The position numbers and the translations under genes are program-made. Below, in pieces: positions 52,318 to 59,354 of a stretch of 64,000 nucleotides of DNA; position 1 is the first letter of the stretch, and each line of letters starts with the position of its first letter. The stretch lies in contig NZ_JAMTCT010000005.1 of the NCBI RefSeq assembly GCF_024171995.1, forward strand, positions 62,001-126,000, in the 5' to 3' direction. The notes under the pieces are model-generated. The model was not told the DNA's origin. It was given only the letters and a program-made list of their open reading frames with translations, and did not search any database. The stretch is from Promicromonospora umidemergens. GTDB taxonomy: Bacteria > Actinomycetota > Actinomycetes > Actinomycetales > Cellulomonadaceae.

Positions 52318-53133
52318 TCAGACGCCCAGGCGCCGACGCAGCTCGCGGGCCTGCCGGCGGGACACCTCTACCCGGCTGCGCTGCCGGTCGTTCATGACCA
52401 CCACGAGAGCACCCTTGAAGTCCGGGACCAGCTCGCGCACGTGGTTCAGGTTCACCAGGTACGACCGGTGCGACCGGAAGAAGTGCCCGTGCAGCCGCCG
52501 CTCCAGCTCGTTCAGCGAGAACGTGACCAGCAGCCGCTCGTCGGCCAGCTTGAGGTACGAGTAGCCACGCGCCGCGCTCGCGTACACGATCGCCGACTGG
52601 TCCACCAGCACCGTGCGGCCGTCACGCTGCACGGGGACCCGGGCGAGCGGCTCCGGACCCGGCGACTCGTCGCCGCGCCGTCCCGCGGACCCACCGTTCG
52701 ACGAGCTGCCCGACCCCGCACCGGCAGGGCTCCCCGGTCCGGGCAGACCCTCCTGCGCGTCGTCGGTGCCGGAATGCTCGAGCGCGCGCGCGACCGCACG
52801 GCACAGGCGGTCGGAGTCGAACGGCTTGACCAGGTAGTCCGCCGCGGCGAGGTCGAAGGCCTCGACGGCATGGTCCGGGTAGGCGGTGGTGAAGATGACC
52901 TTGGGCGGATGCGGCAGGTCGCGCAGCGCGGCAGCGACCTCGAGGCCGCTGCCGCCGGGCATCCTGATGTCCAGCAGCACGAGGTCGTAGGGAAGGGACC
53001 GCAGGAGGAGGAGTGCCTCCTCACCGTTCGCGGCCTCACCGACCACCTGGACCTGCCCGAGCTCCTCCAGCAGATAGCGCAGCTCGGTACGGGCCGGGGC
53101 CTCATCGTCGACGATCAGGGCGCGGGGGCGCAT
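52318..53133 (-). CDS. LytTR-family response regulator
   Basis: 271 aa: a receiver domain (about 1-122) with acidic pocket VDDE, phospho-acceptor Asp in LVLLDIRMPGG (near residue 55) and Lys in YLVKPF, then a Ser/Gly linker (about 125-165) and a LytTR DNA-binding domain (about 168-271: GYSYLKLADERLLV, RSHRSYLVNLNHV). LytTR proteins bind paired 9-bp direct repeats about 21 bp apart, and such arrays occur at 57,077-57,195. It lies 4 bp after the kinase gene, in one operon. Confidence 0.95.
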   Translation of the reverse strand: MRPRALIVDDEAPARTELRYLLEELGQVQVVGEAANGEEALLLLRSLPYDLVLLDIRMPGGSGLEVAAALRDLPHPPKVIFTTAYPDHAVEAFDLAAADYLVKPFDSDRLCRAVARALEHSGTDDAQEGLPGPGSPAGAGSGSSSNGGSAGRRGDESPGPEPLARVPVQRDGRTVLVDQSAIVYASAARGYSYLKLADERLLVTFSLNELERRLHGHFFRSHRSYLVNLNHVRELVPDFKGALVVVMNDRQRSRVEVSRRQARELRRRLGV

Positions 53134-53137
53134 GCCG

Positions 53138-54517
53138 TCAGCGTAGCGGGACCCGCACCTCTACCACCGTTCCCCCGCCCGCCGTCGACTGGATGTCCAG
53201 GGTGAACCGCTCGCCGAACAGCGTCGTCAGGCGCTCGGAGATGTTCTGCAGGCCCACGCCGCCGCGTGCGCCCTCCTCGCCCAGGGCACCCTCGGTGCCC
53301 CGCGCCGCGCCGGCGCCGGTCCCGAGCCCGTCGAGCACGTCAGCGGCCATGCCGACGCCGTCGTCGGTCACCCGGATCGACGTCGTGCGGGTCAAGGGGT
53401 CCACCCGGGCCCTCAGCGTGACCGTGCCGCCCTCTACCTTGTTCGCCAGGCCGTGCTTCACGGCATTCTCGACCAGCGGCTGGATGACCAGCACGGGCAC
53501 GTGCGCCGTGAGGACCTGCGGGTCGATGTCGTACCGCACGCGCAAGCGGTCCCCGAACCTGGCCTGCTCCAGAGACAGGTACGTGCGCACGAAGAAGTAC
53601 TCCTGCGCGAACTCCGCGAGCTGCCCCTCCTGCCGCACGGCATACCGGAAGAAGTCCGACAGGCGCAGCAGCAGCTGGCGCGCCTCGTCCGGATCCGTCC
53701 GCGACTTCGACGCGATCGTGTTCAGGACGTTGAACAGGAAGTGCGGGTTGATCTGGGCCCGCAGGGCGTCGAGCCGGGCGTCCGAGGCCAGCTTGCGCTC
53801 GCGGTCCGCCTCCGCCAGCTCGAGGTGCAGCGACAGGATGCTCGCCATGTCCTCGACCTGGTCCCGTGGCGTGGGCTCGTCGTGCGTGCGGAACACGCCG
53901 ATGGTGCCCACCACACGAGCGCCAACGACGAGCGGCACGACGACGCCGCTGCGCAGCGGGCAGTCCGGGTCGTCGCAACCCATGCTCGACGCCCGGCGGG
54001 ACACCACGGTGCGGCCCTTGGCGATGGCGCTCCGCACGGTGGTGGCGCGCACCGGACCACCCGCCTCGTGGTGGTCGGAGCCAGGCCCGACGAAGGCCAG
54101 GTTCAGCTCCCGGTCGGTGATCACCACGGCGTCGCCGCCCAGCAGCGGGCGCAGCAGCTCGGCGGTGCGGCGCGCGGCGTCGGCGGTCAGGCCGGAGCGG
54201 AGCGGCATGCGGCGTCCGCCCGCCACGATCCGACGTCGGGAACGCTCGACGCCGCGGCCCTCGAGGCCGCGCTCCTCGGGCCCCGGCCGGGCGTCCGACC
54301 CGCCCCGCCGCCGGGACCAGCGCCACAGGGTCCCGGCAGCGCGCGGCCCGCGCAGCGCGGAGGGATAACCGAACACGAGCAGCACGGACGCCACGGTCCC
54401 CGCCGCCACGGTGGTGCCCACCCCGAGCGGCGGCGACACGAACACCTGGGTCACCAGGTACACCGCCGCCCAGGTGAGGCCGATCGTCCCGGCCAGGAGC
54501 GCGCTACCGGTCCGCAT
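53138..54517 (-). CDS. LytS/YehU-type sensor histidine kinase
   Basis: 459 aa. Two N-terminal membrane helices (about 5-25, 30-50) are followed by a GAF-like domain (about 105-230) containing a cysteine pair, GCDDPDCPLRSG, then a His_kinase domain with the phospho-acceptor in INPHFLFNVLNTIASK (about residue 269) and an ATPase domain (IQPLVENAVKHG, VTDDGVGM, GVGLQNISERL). The few membrane helices differ from the multi-helix LytS sensor, so the GAF domain may be the sensor. GGAGGA supports the ATG at 54517. The start overlaps the upstream symporter gene by 14 bp, which links sensing to transport. Confidence 0.93.
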   Translation of the reverse strand: MRTGSALLAGTIGLTWAAVYLVTQVFVSPPLGVGTTVAAGTVASVLLVFGYPSALRGPRAAGTLWRWSRRRGGSDARPGPEERGLEGRGVERSRRRIVAGGRRMPLRSGLTADAARRTAELLRPLLGGDAVVITDRELNLAFVGPGSDHHEAGGPVRATTVRSAIAKGRTVVSRRASSMGCDDPDCPLRSGVVVPLVVGARVVGTIGVFRTHDEPTPRDQVEDMASILSLHLELAEADRERKLASDARLDALRAQINPHFLFNVLNTIASKSRTDPDEARQLLLRLSDFFRYAVRQEGQLAEFAQEYFFVRTYLSLEQARFGDRLRVRYDIDPQVLTAHVPVLVIQPLVENAVKHGLANKVEGGTVTLRARVDPLTRTTSIRVTDDGVGMAADVLDGLGTGAGAARGTEGALGEEGARGGVGLQNISERLTTLFGERFTLDIQSTAGGGTVVEVRVPLR

Positions 54518-56240
54518 CGCGTTCCTCCTCCCGCCGGGCCGCACGGCCGCGGCCGCGCCTGCGTTGCGTCGGCTCGGCGCTCGCGATGGTGAGCCGCGCC
54601 AGCCGTTCGGCATGCCGGTCCGCGGCGGTGCCGTGCAGCACCAGCCACTGCCGTTCGACGTCGTCCGGCGGGGTCGTCGACCGCGACACGAGCCACGTGA
54701 CCAGGCCGGCCAGCGGCGCGGCCACGAGGGTGGGGGTCATGAGCATCTCCCCGAGGCCCGGGCCGATCGGCAGGGCACCCACCACGAACATGGTCACCGA
54801 CACCAGGCCGCCGACGACCATGCCTGCCGTAGCCCCGGCCGCGGTCGTGCCGCGCCACCAGATGGCGAGCACGAACACAGGCGTCAGGGCCGACCCTGCG
54901 ATAGCGAACGACCAGGTCACCATGGCGGCCACGATCGAGGGGACGCCCGGCGTGATGTCCTCCGGCTGCATGGCGATGGCGAGCGCGCCGGCCGCGAGAG
55001 CCGCGACCACGGTGCTCGTGCGGCCGGCCCAGACTGCCTGGCGCTGGGTCGCGCGCGGGTTGATGTGCCGCTCGTAGACGTCGTGCCCCCAGGACGCGGC
55101 GGCGGCGAGCAGGAGCCCCGCGATCGTCGACATCACGGCGACCAGGGCGCCAGCGGCGACGACGGCGAGGCCGGAGTCGCCGCCGTAGATGCGGCCCAGC
55201 ACGGGCAGGGCGTGCTCGGGCACGCGCAGCACGCCGTCGACGGTGAGCTCCTCGAGCCAGGGATGGCCCTCGACGGCCGCGGCGATCTGCTGCCGGGCGG
55301 CCGTGCCGAGCATGACGGCGAGCGCGTAGAACAGCCCGGCCAGGCCGAGCACCCACACCGTCGTCATGCGGGCCGCTGTGCCGGTGGGGCTGGTGAAGTA
55401 CCGGTTCATGACGTGCGGCAGGCCGGCGGTGCCCATGACGAGCGTGAGGATGAGGGCGAACTGGGCCAGCGGTCCGTACGCGGCGCCGGGCTGGCCGAAG
55501 GTCGCCGGCTCGGTCGGGTCGAGCTGGTTGGTCTCGGGCTGCAGGTGCCAGCCAGCCTCGTCGTGCACCGGGTTGGCCAGCGGTTCGGCGGACAGGTCCG
55601 CGACGGCCCCGGAGTAGTGGAACCCCGACCCCGCGACGGCGACCGCGAGCCAGACGAGGGCGCCGAGCAGCAGGAGGAACTGGATGGCCTGGGTCCACGT
55701 GGTGCCGCGCATGCCGCCGAACGCGACGAGCGCAGCCACCACCGCCGTCGAGAGCAACACGCCCGTGGCGTACGCGGAGAGGCCGGGTAGCCCGTGCCCC
55801 ACCAGGAGCTGCCACGTGATGCCGCTGCCCACCGCCTGCGGCACCAGGTAGGACAGGATGACGATCTGGACGACGCCGACGGCGACCAGCCGCACGCGCT
55901 CGGAGGCCAGACGCCGCCCCAGGAAGTCGGGGATGGAGAACTCGCCGAACCGGCGCAGCGGCGCGGCGACGAACAGCAGCACGGGCACGAACCCGGCGGC
56001 GAACCCGACCGCGTACCAGACGCCGTCGAGGCCCGAGACGTAGACCGCCGCCGCGACCCCGAGGAACGACGCGGCGGAGAAGTAGTCCCCGCAGATGGCC
56101 AGGGCGTTCGTGGCGACGCCGACCCGCTGCCCGGCGAGGTAGAAGTCCACGGTGGACACGCCGCGCGGCCGCATGACCAGCGTGACCAGGGCTACGGCGG
56201 CGAGGAGGATCGCCAGCGTGCCCGCGCTCGTGACGGTCAC
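54504..56240 (-). CDS. Sodium:solute symporter, ActP-like
   Basis: A 578-aa SSS-family carrier with about 13 helices. VDFYLAGQRVGVATNALAIC, GDYFSAASFLGVAA and MGTAGLPHVMNRYF are typical of cation/acetate and pyruvate symporters. The C-terminal tail after the last helix is Arg/Glu-rich. The GTG start overlaps the DUF485-like gene by 4 bp, and its 3' end overlaps the histidine kinase gene. A DUF485 partner is the E. coli actP-yjcH arrangement. A short carboxylate substrate is inferred. Confidence 0.92.
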   Translation of the reverse strand: MTVTSAGTLAILLAAVALVTLVMRPRGVSTVDFYLAGQRVGVATNALAICGDYFSAASFLGVAAAVYVSGLDGVWYAVGFAAGFVPVLLFVAAPLRRFGEFSIPDFLGRRLASERVRLVAVGVVQIVILSYLVPQAVGSGITWQLLVGHGLPGLSAYATGVLLSTAVVAALVAFGGMRGTTWTQAIQFLLLLGALVWLAVAVAGSGFHYSGAVADLSAEPLANPVHDEAGWHLQPETNQLDPTEPATFGQPGAAYGPLAQFALILTLVMGTAGLPHVMNRYFTSPTGTAARMTTVWVLGLAGLFYALAVMLGTAARQQIAAAVEGHPWLEELTVDGVLRVPEHALPVLGRIYGGDSGLAVVAAGALVAVMSTIAGLLLAAAASWGHDVYERHINPRATQRQAVWAGRTSTVVAALAAGALAIAMQPEDITPGVPSIVAAMVTWSFAIAGSALTPVFVLAIWWRGTTAAGATAGMVVGGLVSVTMFVVGALPIGPGLGEMLMTPTLVAAPLAGLVTWLVSRSTTPPDDVERQWLVLHGTAADRHAERLARLTIASAEPTQRRRGRGRAARREEERDADR

Positions 56241-56584
56241 GGGAGCTCGCCGTCGGCCGGGTAGTCGTCATCGTCGTTCCGGCCGCCCAGCATGCGGGCC
56301 TCGACCGCCGACGAGAGCGTGGCCGCCGCCAGCCCGATCACCAGGAAGAACGCGTACAGCCCGAACGCCGCCATGGCGAAGCCAGGGCTCATCCCGCCGG
56401 CCAGGCGCCCGCCCGACCACCAGTCGAGCGTGAGCGACAGGGCGGGGACGCCCATCACCGCGGCGAGGAACAGCACGAAATGGGTGATCGCGACGCGCCG
56501 CAGCGTACGGAACGCCGCGTCGACCTCGGCCGGGGTGTCGTGCTCGTCGTCGTCGTCGTCGTCGTGCTCCATGGGACGATCCAT
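56237..56584 (-). CDS. DUF485-like small membrane protein
   Basis: 115 aa with two helices (about 32-55 and 66-92). An acidic N-terminus contains seven Asp/Glu in a row (from a GTC repeat) and the C-terminus has NDDDDY. DUF485 proteins accompany ActP-type symporters and probably form a small subunit. Starts at 56584 or 56572 are possible. It overlaps the symporter gene by 4 bp. Confidence 0.8.
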   Translation of the reverse strand: MDRPMEHDDDDDDEHDTPAEVDAAFRTLRRVAITHFVLFLAAVMGVPALSLTLDWWSGGRLAGGMSPGFAMAAFGLYAFFLVIGLAAATLSSAVEARMLGGRNDDDDYPADGELP

Positions 56585-56593
56585 GGAACGAGG

Positions 56594-57019
56594 CTATGCG
56601 TCGGATGCCCGGCGCAGGCGCCAGGCGGTGCGCAGCATGATCACCGCGCCGCCGGCGACCATGACGAGGCCCATGCCGGGCCACATCTTGCCCCAGGAGT
56701 CGGTGCTCGAGCTGACCTGGACCATCTGCACGATGCTCCACACGACGGCGACCGCGCCGGGTACGGCGACGACGAGGCAGTGGCCGATGGCTACCCGCCG
56801 GAACGGCAGCACCGCGCCGGCGAACGCGAGGGGCGCCACGGCCAGCGTCGCCCAGCCGAGGTAGCTCGCGTGGCCAGGGATGTGCCCCAGCGGCGTGCTG
56901 ATCCAGGGCAGCACCGACCCGATCATGACGCACAGCCCTCCGATGACCATCGCCAGGCTGCCGGGGTGGAACGCGCGGCGGCGCACGGCGGTACCGGAAG
57001 TGCTCGACGTCGAGGACAT
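56594..57019 (-). CDS. Four-helix membrane protein of unknown function
   Basis: 141 aa: a Ser/Thr-rich start, then predicted helices at about 20-40, 53-72, 78-105 and 112-130, with WISTPLGHIPG in the first outer loop. The family is not recognised. It is the first gene of the symporter-kinase-regulator operon (9 bp before the DUF485-like gene) and would be the first gene downstream of the minus-strand LytTR array. A -10 (TACGAT) lies 6 nt upstream of the ATG at 57019. Confidence 0.75.
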   Translation of the reverse strand: MSSTSSTSGTAVRRRAFHPGSLAMVIGGLCVMIGSVLPWISTPLGHIPGHASYLGWATLAVAPLAFAGAVLPFRRVAIGHCLVVAVPGAVAVVWSIVQMVQVSSSTDSWGKMWPGMGLVMVAGGAVIMLRTAWRLRRASDA

Positions 57020-57025
57020 AGGGCG

Positions 57026-57031
57026 ATCGTA
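57026..57031 (-). promoter_or_regulatory. -10 hexamer of the symporter-kinase operon
   Basis: TACGAT on the minus strand ends 6 nt before the ATG at 57019. The LytTR-like repeats begin about 46 bp further upstream. Confidence 0.45.
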
Positions 57032-57076
57032 GGGCTGGCGGGGTCGTCCAGGGACCCCCGCAAGGGCACCGCACTG

Positions 57077-57127
57077 CCGAACGGCAGGTCGAGCTCCGCG
57101 AACGGTCAAGAATGCCCCCCGAACGGT
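57077..57127 (-). promoter_or_regulatory. LytTR-type operator array, minus-strand sites
   Basis: On the minus strand the 9-mers ACCGTTCGG (57119-57127), ACCGTTCGC (57098-57106) and GCCGTTCGG (57077-57085) stand exactly 21 bp apart. The first fits the published LytTR consensus [TA][AC][CA]GTTN[AG][TG], and the others differ by one base. They point toward the membrane-protein/ActP/kinase operon. Confidence 0.75.
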
Positions 57128-57145
57128 CGGGTGAAGATGTCCGGC

Positions 57146-57195
57146 ACCGTTCGCCGCCCAGAGCGACCGCTCGCGGGGTCGCGGCGACCGTCCGG
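57146..57195 (+). promoter_or_regulatory. LytTR-type operator array, plus-strand sites
   Basis: On the + strand ACCGTTCGC (57146-57154), ACCGCTCGC (57166-57174) and ACCGTCCGG (57187-57195) stand 20 and 21 bp apart. Two differ from the LytTR consensus at one base of the GTT core or last position, and the middle one at two. They point toward the DUF4212-symporter operon. Confidence 0.65.
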
Positions 57196-57339
57196 CCGGT
57201 CGGCTCTTGCGCCGCGGGGGCGTCTGCCCCTTGGCTCAGGCTCGGGGGCAGTTGTGATCCGCACCACAGTGCGTCCCGGCACCGGCAGGCCGCAGAGGCC
57301 GCAGGGGTCGCACCACGACACGCAAAGGAGCGTCGAGAC

Positions 57340-57687
57340 ATGACCGACACGAACGAGAGCCCCCCCGGTGGGGCACCGCCGCCGGGCGGCGGCGGTGGCG
57401 CCGCGCTGCCGGACAACGGCTGGCGCAAGGAGTACTGGAAGAAGAACCTCCGCCTGATGGTGGTGCTGCTCGTCGTCTGGTTCGTGGTCTCGTTCGGCGC
57501 AGGAATCCTGTTCGTCGAGCAGCTCAACGAGATCGTGATCGGCGGCTTCCCCCTGGGCTTCTGGTTCGCGCAGCAGGGCTCGATCTACACCTTCATCCTG
57601 CTGATCCTCATCTACGCCCTGCGCATGGACAAGCTTGACGACCACTACGGCGTCAGCGAGCGCAACGACGACGGGAGCCGGTCATGA
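57340..57687 (+). CDS. DUF4212 symporter small subunit
   Basis: 115 aa. After a Pro/Gly-rich lead (about 1-24) comes the family core RKEYWKKNLRLMVVLL with two helices (about 38-60 and 77-97) and GGFPLGFWFAQQGSIYTF between them, ending in RMDKLDDHY. DUF4212 proteins pair with a dedicated SSS carrier, which here overlaps by 4 bp. AAAGGAG 9 nt upstream sets the ATG at 57340. Confidence 0.93.
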   Translation: MTDTNESPPGGAPPPGGGGGAALPDNGWRKEYWKKNLRLMVVLLVVWFVVSFGAGILFVEQLNEIVIGGFPLGFWFAQQGSIYTFILLILIYALRMDKLDDHYGVSERNDDGSRS

Positions 57688-59354
57688 GTGACATCCAGAC
57701 CTGGGCGCTCATCTTCGTCGCGGCGTCGTTCGCGCTGTACATCGGGATCGCCTGGCGCAGCCGGGTGAAGGAGACCAAGGGCTTCTTCGTCGCGGAGCAG
57801 AACATCCCCGCCGTCGCGAACGGTGCCGCCGTCGCCGCGGACTGGATGTCCGCTGCGTCCTTCATCTCGATGGCCGGCCTCATCGCCTTCCTCGGGTCGG
57901 ACGGCTCCATCTACCTGATGGGCTGGACGGGCGGCTTCGTGCTGCTCGCCCTGCTGCTCGCGCCGTACCTGCGCAAGTGGGGCAAGTTCACGGTTCCCGA
58001 GTTCGTCGGTGACCGGTTCTCCGAGACGGTGCGGTCGGTGGCCGCCGTCGTCGCCATCATCGTGTCGTTCACCTACGTGGTGGGGCAGATGGCGGGCGGC
58101 GGCATCGTCTTCTCCCGGTTCCTTGGGGTGGAGCAGGCGGCCGGTGTGGCGATCGCGGCGGCGGTCATCTTCGCCTACGCGGTGTTCGGCGGCATGAAGG
58201 GCATCACCTGGACCCAGGTGGCCCAGTACACGGTGCTGATCGTCGCCTACCTGATCCCGGCCTGGGCCGTTGCGCACACGATGACCGGGTTCCCGGTGCC
58301 GCAGATCTCGTTCGGCGAGATCCTGGCCGAGCTGAACCGGATCGGCGCCGAGTTCGGGCTGCCGGTCTACACCGAGGCGTTCACCGCCCGGCCGCAGATC
58401 GACGTCTTCCTGGTGACCCTGTCGCTCATGATCGGCACCGCCGGCCTGCCGCACGTGATCATCCGGTTCTACACGACCAAGACGGTCCGCGGGGCGCGCT
58501 ACTCGGCCCTGTGGGCGCTGGTCTTCATCGGCCTGCTCTACACGACGGCCCCGGCCGTGGGTGCGTTCACCAAGCTCAACCTGCTCTCGGGCGTGCAGGG
58601 CGCCGCCGTCGACGCCTTGCCGTCCTGGGTGCAGAACTGGATGGCGACCGGACTGGTCACCGTGGGTGACGGCGTCGACACGATCGGTACGGTCAGCAAC
58701 GACCCGACCTCTGGTGCCGACCTGATCATCAACAACGACATCCTGGTGCTCGCCAGCCCCGAGATCGCGGGCCTCCCGGCGCCGATCGTCGGGCTCGTCG
58801 CGGCGGGTGGCCTCGCGGCCGCCATGTCGACGGCGGCCGGCCTGCTGCTGGTCATCTCGTCGTCGGCGTCCCACGACCTGTACTTCCGGTACCTGGACAA
58901 GAACGCCTCGGAGAGTCGCCGCCTCCTCGTCAGCCGGATCGCCATGGGAGTGGCCGTCCTGGTCTCGATCTACTTCGGCATCAACCCGCCGGCGTTCGTG
59001 GCCCAGGTGGTCGCCTTCGCCTTCGGGCTCGCCGCGTCCACCTTCTTCCCGATCCTGCTGCTCGGGATCTTCTGGAAGAGGACCAACGCGGCGGGCGCCG
59101 TCTCCGGCATGCTCGCGGGTCTCGCCTTCACCTCGACCTACATGATCTACACGCTCGAGGTGTTCGGTACGCAGGCCAACGACCACATCCTGGGTGTGAG
59201 CCCCGAGGGCATCGGCGCCATCGGCGCGGTCGTGAACCTGGTGGTCACGGTCATCGTGTCGCTGGCGACCAAGCCTCCGTCGCACGAGATCCAGGAGATG
59301 GTCGAGAACATCAGGTACCCCGCGACCACCCGTCGGACGGAGACCGCTGCCTGA
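57684..59354 (+). CDS. Sodium:solute symporter (DUF4212-linked)
   Basis: A 556-aa SSS carrier with about 13 helices. Landmarks are TKGFFVAEQNIPAVANG, AADWMSAASFISMAGL, VFGGMKGITWTQVAQY, IGTAGLPHVIIRFYT and AAAMSTAAGLLLVISSS. It belongs to the acetate/pyruvate/propionate-type group and is related to, but distinct from, the ActP-like carrier at 54504. The ATG is coupled to DUF4212. A hairpin terminator follows at 59424. Confidence 0.94.
   Translation: MSDIQTWALIFVAASFALYIGIAWRSRVKETKGFFVAEQNIPAVANGAAVAADWMSAASFISMAGLIAFLGSDGSIYLMGWTGGFVLLALLLAPYLRKWGKFTVPEFVGDRFSETVRSVAAVVAIIVSFTYVVGQMAGGGIVFSRFLGVEQAAGVAIAAAVIFAYAVFGGMKGITWTQVAQYTVLIVAYLIPAWAVAHTMTGFPVPQISFGEILAELNRIGAEFGLPVYTEAFTARPQIDVFLVTLSLMIGTAGLPHVIIRFYTTKTVRGARYSALWALVFIGLLYTTAPAVGAFTKLNLLSGVQGAAVDALPSWVQNWMATGLVTVGDGVDTIGTVSNDPTSGADLIINNDILVLASPEIAGLPAPIVGLVAAGGLAAAMSTAAGLLLVISSSASHDLYFRYLDKNASESRRLLVSRIAMGVAVLVSIYFGINPPAFVAQVVAFAFGLAASTFFPILLLGIFWKRTNAAGAVSGMLAGLAFTSTYMIYTLEVFGTQANDHILGVSPEGIGAIGAVVNLVVTVIVSLATKPPSHEIQEMVENIRYPATTRRTETAA

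Follow-up and report, generated by a model that had tools for sequence, protein, structure and literature searches.

Two triple-repeat arrays between divergent symporter operons of Promicromonospora umidemergens as predicted operators of a LytTR regulator

In a window of 64,000 nucleotides from Promicromonospora umidemergens (contig NZ_JAMTCT010000005.1, positions 62,001 to 126,000), the 320-bp intergenic region between a leftward and a rightward symporter operon (57020-57339) holds two arrays of three 9-bp direct repeats. Both arrays are predicted to be operators of the response regulator encoded at 52318-53133, and jointly to form one bidirectional switch through which the regulator would activate both importers and its own genes; the probability of this reading is put at about 80%. 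It rests on the arrays themselves (presence, conservation, spacing and phasing with the promoters), on the genes that occur together, and on the recurrence of the pair in front of transporter genes at other LytTR loci.

Results

Genes of the divergent operons

The features of the locus are listed in Table 1. The LytTR regulator and kinase that the original prediction had placed in the leftward operon were recovered as a LytS/LytTR two-component system, with four domains (PF06580, HATPase_c, receiver and LytTR) all over cut-off. D9, D10, D55, T83 and K103 of the regulator are invariant in 16 aligned sequences, and its scores with the BtsR and LytR equivalogs NF008677 (149.6 vs 246) and NF010684 (140.9 vs 375) are far below the cut-offs. 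No other LytTR gene is present in the genome, so that any LytTR-type sites there are by far most likely used by this regulator. In the GAF region of the kinase, HH and C-N4-C are conserved (kinase residues 181-182, 213 and 218), possibly as a metal or redox site; of 32 aligned kinases, 28 have C in both cysteine columns, the cysteines being lost in L064, L066, L067 and L068.

The DUF4212/SSS transporter named earlier for the rightward operon was confirmed by TIGR03647 (123 vs cut-off 26.05) for the small subunit and TIGR03648 (733 bits vs cut-off 320.75) for SSSb. TIGR03648 is also the best model for the leftward symporter SSSa, at 279.5 below the same cut-off. An assignment of SSSa as the cation/acetate symporter ActP finds no backing in TIGR02711, where it scores 173.5, below the cut-off of 1099.25. 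The DUF485 label given to the gene at 56237-56584 had to be dropped, as PF04341 was not matched, nor was any other Pfam family at E<=10.

Table 1. Features of the divergent locus (positions in the window)
Feature	Position	Strand	Remarks
TM4, first gene of leftward operon	56594..57019	minus	141-aa small membrane-type protein, no Pfam family over cut-off
Small protein beside SSSa	56237..56584	minus	115 aa, no Pfam match at E<=10
SSSa sodium:solute symporter	54504..56240	minus	PF00474
LytS-type histidine kinase	53138..54613	minus	GAF, PF06580, HATPase_c; uncertain start codon, the listed frame overlaps SSSa
Response regulator	52318..53133	minus	receiver and LytTR domain; only LytTR gene of the genome
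DUF4212 symporter small subunit	57340..57687	plus	PF13937, TIGR03647
SSSb, VC_2705-family sodium/solute symporter	57684..59354	plus	TIGR03648 over cut-off
Left array site 3 (distal)	57120..57128	minus	GACCGTTCG, read directly
Left array site 2	57099..57107	minus	GACCGTTCG, read directly
Left array site 1 (proximal)	57078..57086	minus	TGCCGTTCG, read directly
Right array site 1 (distal)	57145..57153	plus	CACCGTTCG, read directly
Right array site 2	57165..57173	plus	GACCGCTCG, read directly
Right array site 3 (proximal)	57186..57194	plus	GACCGTCCG, read directly
-10-like hexamer TACGAT	57026..57031	minus	6 nt before ATG of TM4; invariant in 6 congeners
Putative core promoter TTGCGC-N18-TTGGCT	57207..57236	plus	pattern conserved in 12/18 loci
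TGTGA-N6-CCACA element TGTGATCCGCACCACA	57253-57268		downstream of right putative promoter; in 9/18 regions; 14/16 positions invariant in six congeners

Two arrays of direct repeats

The three minus-strand 9-mers (57120, 57099, 57078) and the three plus-strand ones (57145, 57165, 57186) had been described correctly. Their start-to-start steps are 21/21 bp on the left and 20/21 bp on the right, with spacers of 12/12 and 11/12 bp. Tandem-repeat LytTR operators with 11-13-bp spacers, and LytS/LytTR systems acting on transporter genes, have been described (in the accessible parts of PMC4847170 and PMC5552118), and both arrays have this form of 9-bp direct repeats with 11-13-bp spacers. The term "near-identical" suits the left array best, the right-hand sites each being one base off GACCGTTCG. 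Three sites per side were indeed found, but "unusual" holds only with a reservation: published LytTR operators of RcoM1 and CoxC have three repeats, which rules out that three sites are unprecedented.

Pairs were defined as two sites spaced 20-22 bp with at most two total mismatches to ACCGTTCG. The intergenic region has four; over 20,000 dinucleotide shuffles the mean was 0.0015, and no shuffle had more than one. SRCCGTTCG-N12-SRCCGTTCG has a single perfect match in the whole genome of 6.6 Mb, at 57099-57128. With one mismatch the pattern occurs at seven places, one of which is the overlapping pair of the left array; around the remaining six the DNA shows codon-phase GC bias, a bias that the array locus does not have. 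Chance or base composition as the origin of the arrays was rejected, since both the shuffles and the genome scan argue against it.

Conservation of the arrays

Conservation of the repeats in relatives had been named beforehand as the test that could refute the prediction. It was followed in 18 orthologous intergenic regions, comprising the window, 11 relatives and six contigs listed by taxon (Isoptericola, Myceligenerans, two Pseudonocardiaceae MAGs, an Actinophytocola MAG and a Euzebyaceae MAG); L074 was excluded, because its contig ends within the kinase gene next to the regulator. Strict pairs are present in 13 of the 18 regions (absent in L055, L059, L069, L071 and L072), and pair spacings pooled over the 18 regions peak sharply at 21 bp, with 24 pairs at this distance, five at 20 and nine at 42.

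Triples were searched with a matrix made from the six sites of the window only, with 200 shuffles per locus-strand. By this matrix search the arrays are found along with the gene set in all 18 regions, with a best triple on each strand, and the prediction was thus not refuted by its own test. The triple scores above all 200 shuffles in 31 of 36 locus-strands (14/18 on the plus strand), and in the other five it was reached by 1-4 of 200. A spacing of 21/21 is seen in 17/18 left and 9/18 right triples, while the rest deviate to 20 or 22 in one step or in both. In the window, the left array scores 38.2 and the right array, the weaker one, 32.6. Among six congeners, invariant columns number 42/54 within the sites, 29/63 in the spacers and 113/203 outside.

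Promoter geometry

On the left side, TANNNT lies 6-8 nt before the in-frame ATG of TM4 in 18/18 regions, and a leaderless left mRNA is therefore predicted. No clear -35 was found on this side. The distance between the left array, which was picked without reference to the hexamer, and the -10-like hexamer varies in helical-turn steps: it is 34-36 bp in eight loci, 46 in seven and 56 in three, which accounts for all 18. These distances cluster at a 10.5-bp period (R=0.92, Rayleigh p ~4e-5, taking one value per lineage for 12 lineages, with p not corrected for relatedness). Two genomes within one genus (g21) differ by one helical turn, 35 vs 46 bp.

On the right side, the pattern of the putative core promoter is missing in four of the 18 loci (L069, L071-L073). 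Among 12 loci that could be anchored automatically, the right array ends 10-11 bp upstream of CTTG in 11. The exception, L062, has a different best triple, and an in-register triple is readable there by eye. With L055 and L056 added, the same distance holds in 13 of the 14 loci measured. This agrees with published LytTR regulatory systems, in which, according to the part of PMC6193735 available, the repeats are located ~10 bp upstream of the -35. Both core promoters look weak, as activator-dependent promoters would be expected to: the left one has no clear -35, and the right one has TTGGCT for a -10.

The element TGTGATCCGCACCACA, downstream of the right putative promoter, is presumably Crp/GlxR-like; through it, control by carbon status may be added. 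ACACGCAAAGGAGCGTCG (57318-57335), immediately upstream of the DUF4212 start, is invariant at 18/18 positions in six congeners, a conservation greater than a plain ribosome-binding site needs.

Co-occurrence of regulator, transporter and arrays

Orthologs of the regulator occur in 11 of 98 other genomes, and all 11 carry the complete divergent gene set. DUF4212 scores over cut-off in 14 of 99 genomes, namely the 12 bearing the regulator (own genome included) and G043 and G061. The 13 genomes of the genus divide into six with both regulator and DUF4212 and seven with neither of the two and no LytTR domain at all, one of the seven (G009) being 83% complete. In G043 and G061 (loci L178 and L179), TM4 and DUF4212-SSSb are kept and the LytTR regulator is not linked. 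The divergent position of TM4 to DUF4212-SSSb even without a linked regulator hints at a joint function of TM4 and the DUF4212 transporter. Triple scores in the upstream 400 bp are 4.3 and 1.7 in G043, and 2.6 and 13.6 in G061. G061 is not a clean negative control, because two sites 21 bp apart are retained before DUF4212 and a LytTR gene is present elsewhere, beside another SSS symporter.

The profile R1 and the alignment A3 were made from 18 of the 26 arrays with 21/21 spacing (left out were L057+, L059+, L075+, L069-, L071-, L071+, L072+ and L073-). The array locus is the best R1 match in 12/12 regulator-bearing genomes (E 3e-12 to 9e-6), a circular result since R1 was built from these arrays, so that only absence elsewhere informs. 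In the seven congeners without the regulator, the best R1 match reaches only E 0.004-0.06. A wide regulon was rejected for the own genome: there is no second R1 place better than E 0.009, in a scan that scored 150 of 19,736 candidates and that a two-site target could escape, and the six near-perfect pairs elsewhere are all in codon-phased DNA. In the relative G025, a second target may exist at L210 (G025:C1:4406279-4406324), an off-locus R1 match with E 3.4e-4 where the DNA shows no codon phase.

The repeat pair at other LytTR loci

At 79 loci with distant LytTR-type regulators, 11 pairs were counted at 21 bp and at most three at any other spacing from 10 to 33; in a permuted-motif control, 6 of 40 permutations reached the real pair count. 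Seven of the 11 pairs were placed relative to genes: four are ~100-105 bp upstream of cstA and face it (PF02554 for one), two stand before DUF485 and SSS genes, in Thermomonospora and Galactobacter, and one (L087) is before a more remote CstA match. Two genomes of another family with a LytTR gene, G077 and G093, have a perfect GACCGTTCG-N12-GACCGTTCG pair (L176:934-963 and L177:1501-1530) that lies 121 and 120 bp, respectively, upstream of an MFS gene of 454 aa. One of the two MFS genes was scanned and scored 351.5 with the L-lactate MFS transporter model (cut-off 320). Pairs of the degenerate pattern are also seen in codon-phased DNA of G038, G045 and G009, genomes without LytTR. Since the 21-bp pair recurs at non-orthologous LytTR loci, motif and spacing are tied to LytTR genes and transporters independently of descent of the array locus; the outcome of the permuted-motif control and the pairs in genomes without LytTR weigh against this link.

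Discussion

The reading that one LytTR regulator serves both operons is largely supported by the conservation of the arrays, the sole LytTR gene and the same pair elsewhere; the part that fell away is the DUF485 label. Points that count against it are the five regions without a strict pair, the five triples that some shuffles reached, the four loci lacking the right promoter pattern, the absence of a clear -35 on the left, and G061, whose pair before DUF4212 is kept while its LytTR gene is elsewhere. We propose that the GAF/LytS-type kinase would phosphorylate the regulator on a signal, most likely a small monocarboxylate, and that the regulator would fill the three direct repeats of each side, one every two helical turns. 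Binding may be cooperative. YpdB binds tandem repeats as monomers, cooperatively in its phosphomimetic form (PMC4847170); a row of three on each side could therefore make the response steeper. From the left array the regulator would activate the leaderless five-gene operon of TM4, small protein, SSSa, kinase and regulator, which would amount to positive autoregulation. The right array, ending 11 bp before the CTTG of the putative -35, would activate DUF4212-SSSb.

Alternatively, the left array could serve only or mainly autoregulation and SSSa, with DUF4212-SSSb driven chiefly by a Crp/GlxR-type factor at TGTGATCCGCACCACA. The lower matrix score of the right array in the window would fit this, as would the presumably Crp/GlxR-like TGTGA-N6-CCACA element, with its 14 invariant positions of 16 in six congeners. 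But that element is present in nine of the 18 regions and missing in the other nine, whereas the right array is conserved too, both in its triples above all shuffles and in its position before the conserved CTTG, which makes this course of events unlikely. Repression of both operons, released by the signal, is very unlikely, even though CoxC is a LytTR repressor with three repeats: the CoxC repeats overlap the -35, while both arrays here are upstream of putative, weak-looking core promoters, and most upstream-binding LytTR regulators activate (these points on CoxC and other LytTR regulators being from the accessible part of PMC11347149).

Hardly any weight is given to another, unlinked factor that binds the repeats, with the LytTR regulator as a bystander. 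In G061 a pair does persist before DUF4212 although no regulator gene is linked to it. Against this, the repeats agree with published LytTR operators in length, sequence and spacing, neither DUF4212 nor a comparable array is present in the seven congeners that lack a LytTR domain, and the same pair is present at other LytTR loci.

The arrangement recalls the pyruvate-responsive systems YpdAB-yhjX and BtsSR-btsT of E. coli, in which a LytS-type kinase and a LytTR regulator act on a transporter gene through tandem repeats. Those systems have two repeats and other transporter folds; here each side has three repeats, the promoter region is divergent between two SSS operons, and the target operon itself encodes kinase and regulator. 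The regulators of CrbS/R and RpuS/R are not known to be of the LytTR type. These are likewise two-component systems that control symporters and the use of acetate or pyruvate, with kinases that are SLC5/STAC fusions, unlike here. In RcoM1 (Paraburkholderia xenovorans) and CoxC (Afipia carboxidovorans), the LytTR operator likewise consists of three direct repeats about two helical turns apart; the motif is TTCNNGCA or TTNNNGCN, the CO sensor is in the same protein, the targets are cox genes and CoxC represses (PMC11347149, in the part available). By contrast, the present locus has a two-component regulator, a different motif and two arrays back to back. HdrRM and BrsRM of Streptococcus mutans and their kin share direct repeats mostly 12 bp apart, ~10 bp upstream of the -35, and positive autoregulation as proposed here, and differ in that the regulator's partner is an inhibitory membrane protein, not a kinase, and in having two repeats and one operon (PMC6193735).

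Direct-repeat LytTR operators with ~12-bp spacers, autoregulation, transporter targets and triple repeats (RcoM1, CoxC) are thus already known. In the literature searched, which covers subscription journals thinly, we found no description of a homologous actinobacterial system, no mention of DUF4212, and no paper on LytTR with DUF485 and acetate, or with a symporter and Actinobacteria. The same literature gave no report of back-to-back triple arrays in a divergent promoter, of the helical-turn steps, or of one operator code for three transporter folds.

The most familiar LytTR systems are virulence regulators and those of enterobacterial pyruvate sensing. The locus offers a precise, conserved putative operator for an actinobacterial LytTR system that would govern two symporter operons, one of them DUF4212/SSS. 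On a wider reading the evidence leaves us evenly divided: in many Actinobacteria, one LytTR operator code (GACCGTTCG-like, every 21 bp) would be a shared address of monocarboxylate import, set before SSS, CstA and lactate-type MFS transporters of unrelated folds, and here it would have turned into a bidirectional switch, dedicated and confined to one locus, that is made up of two triple arrays, with the distance to the left promoter changing by whole helical turns only. The steps of 34-36, 46 and 56 bp are a natural spacing experiment for LytTR activation, and a common operator code would predict transporter targets in other genomes.
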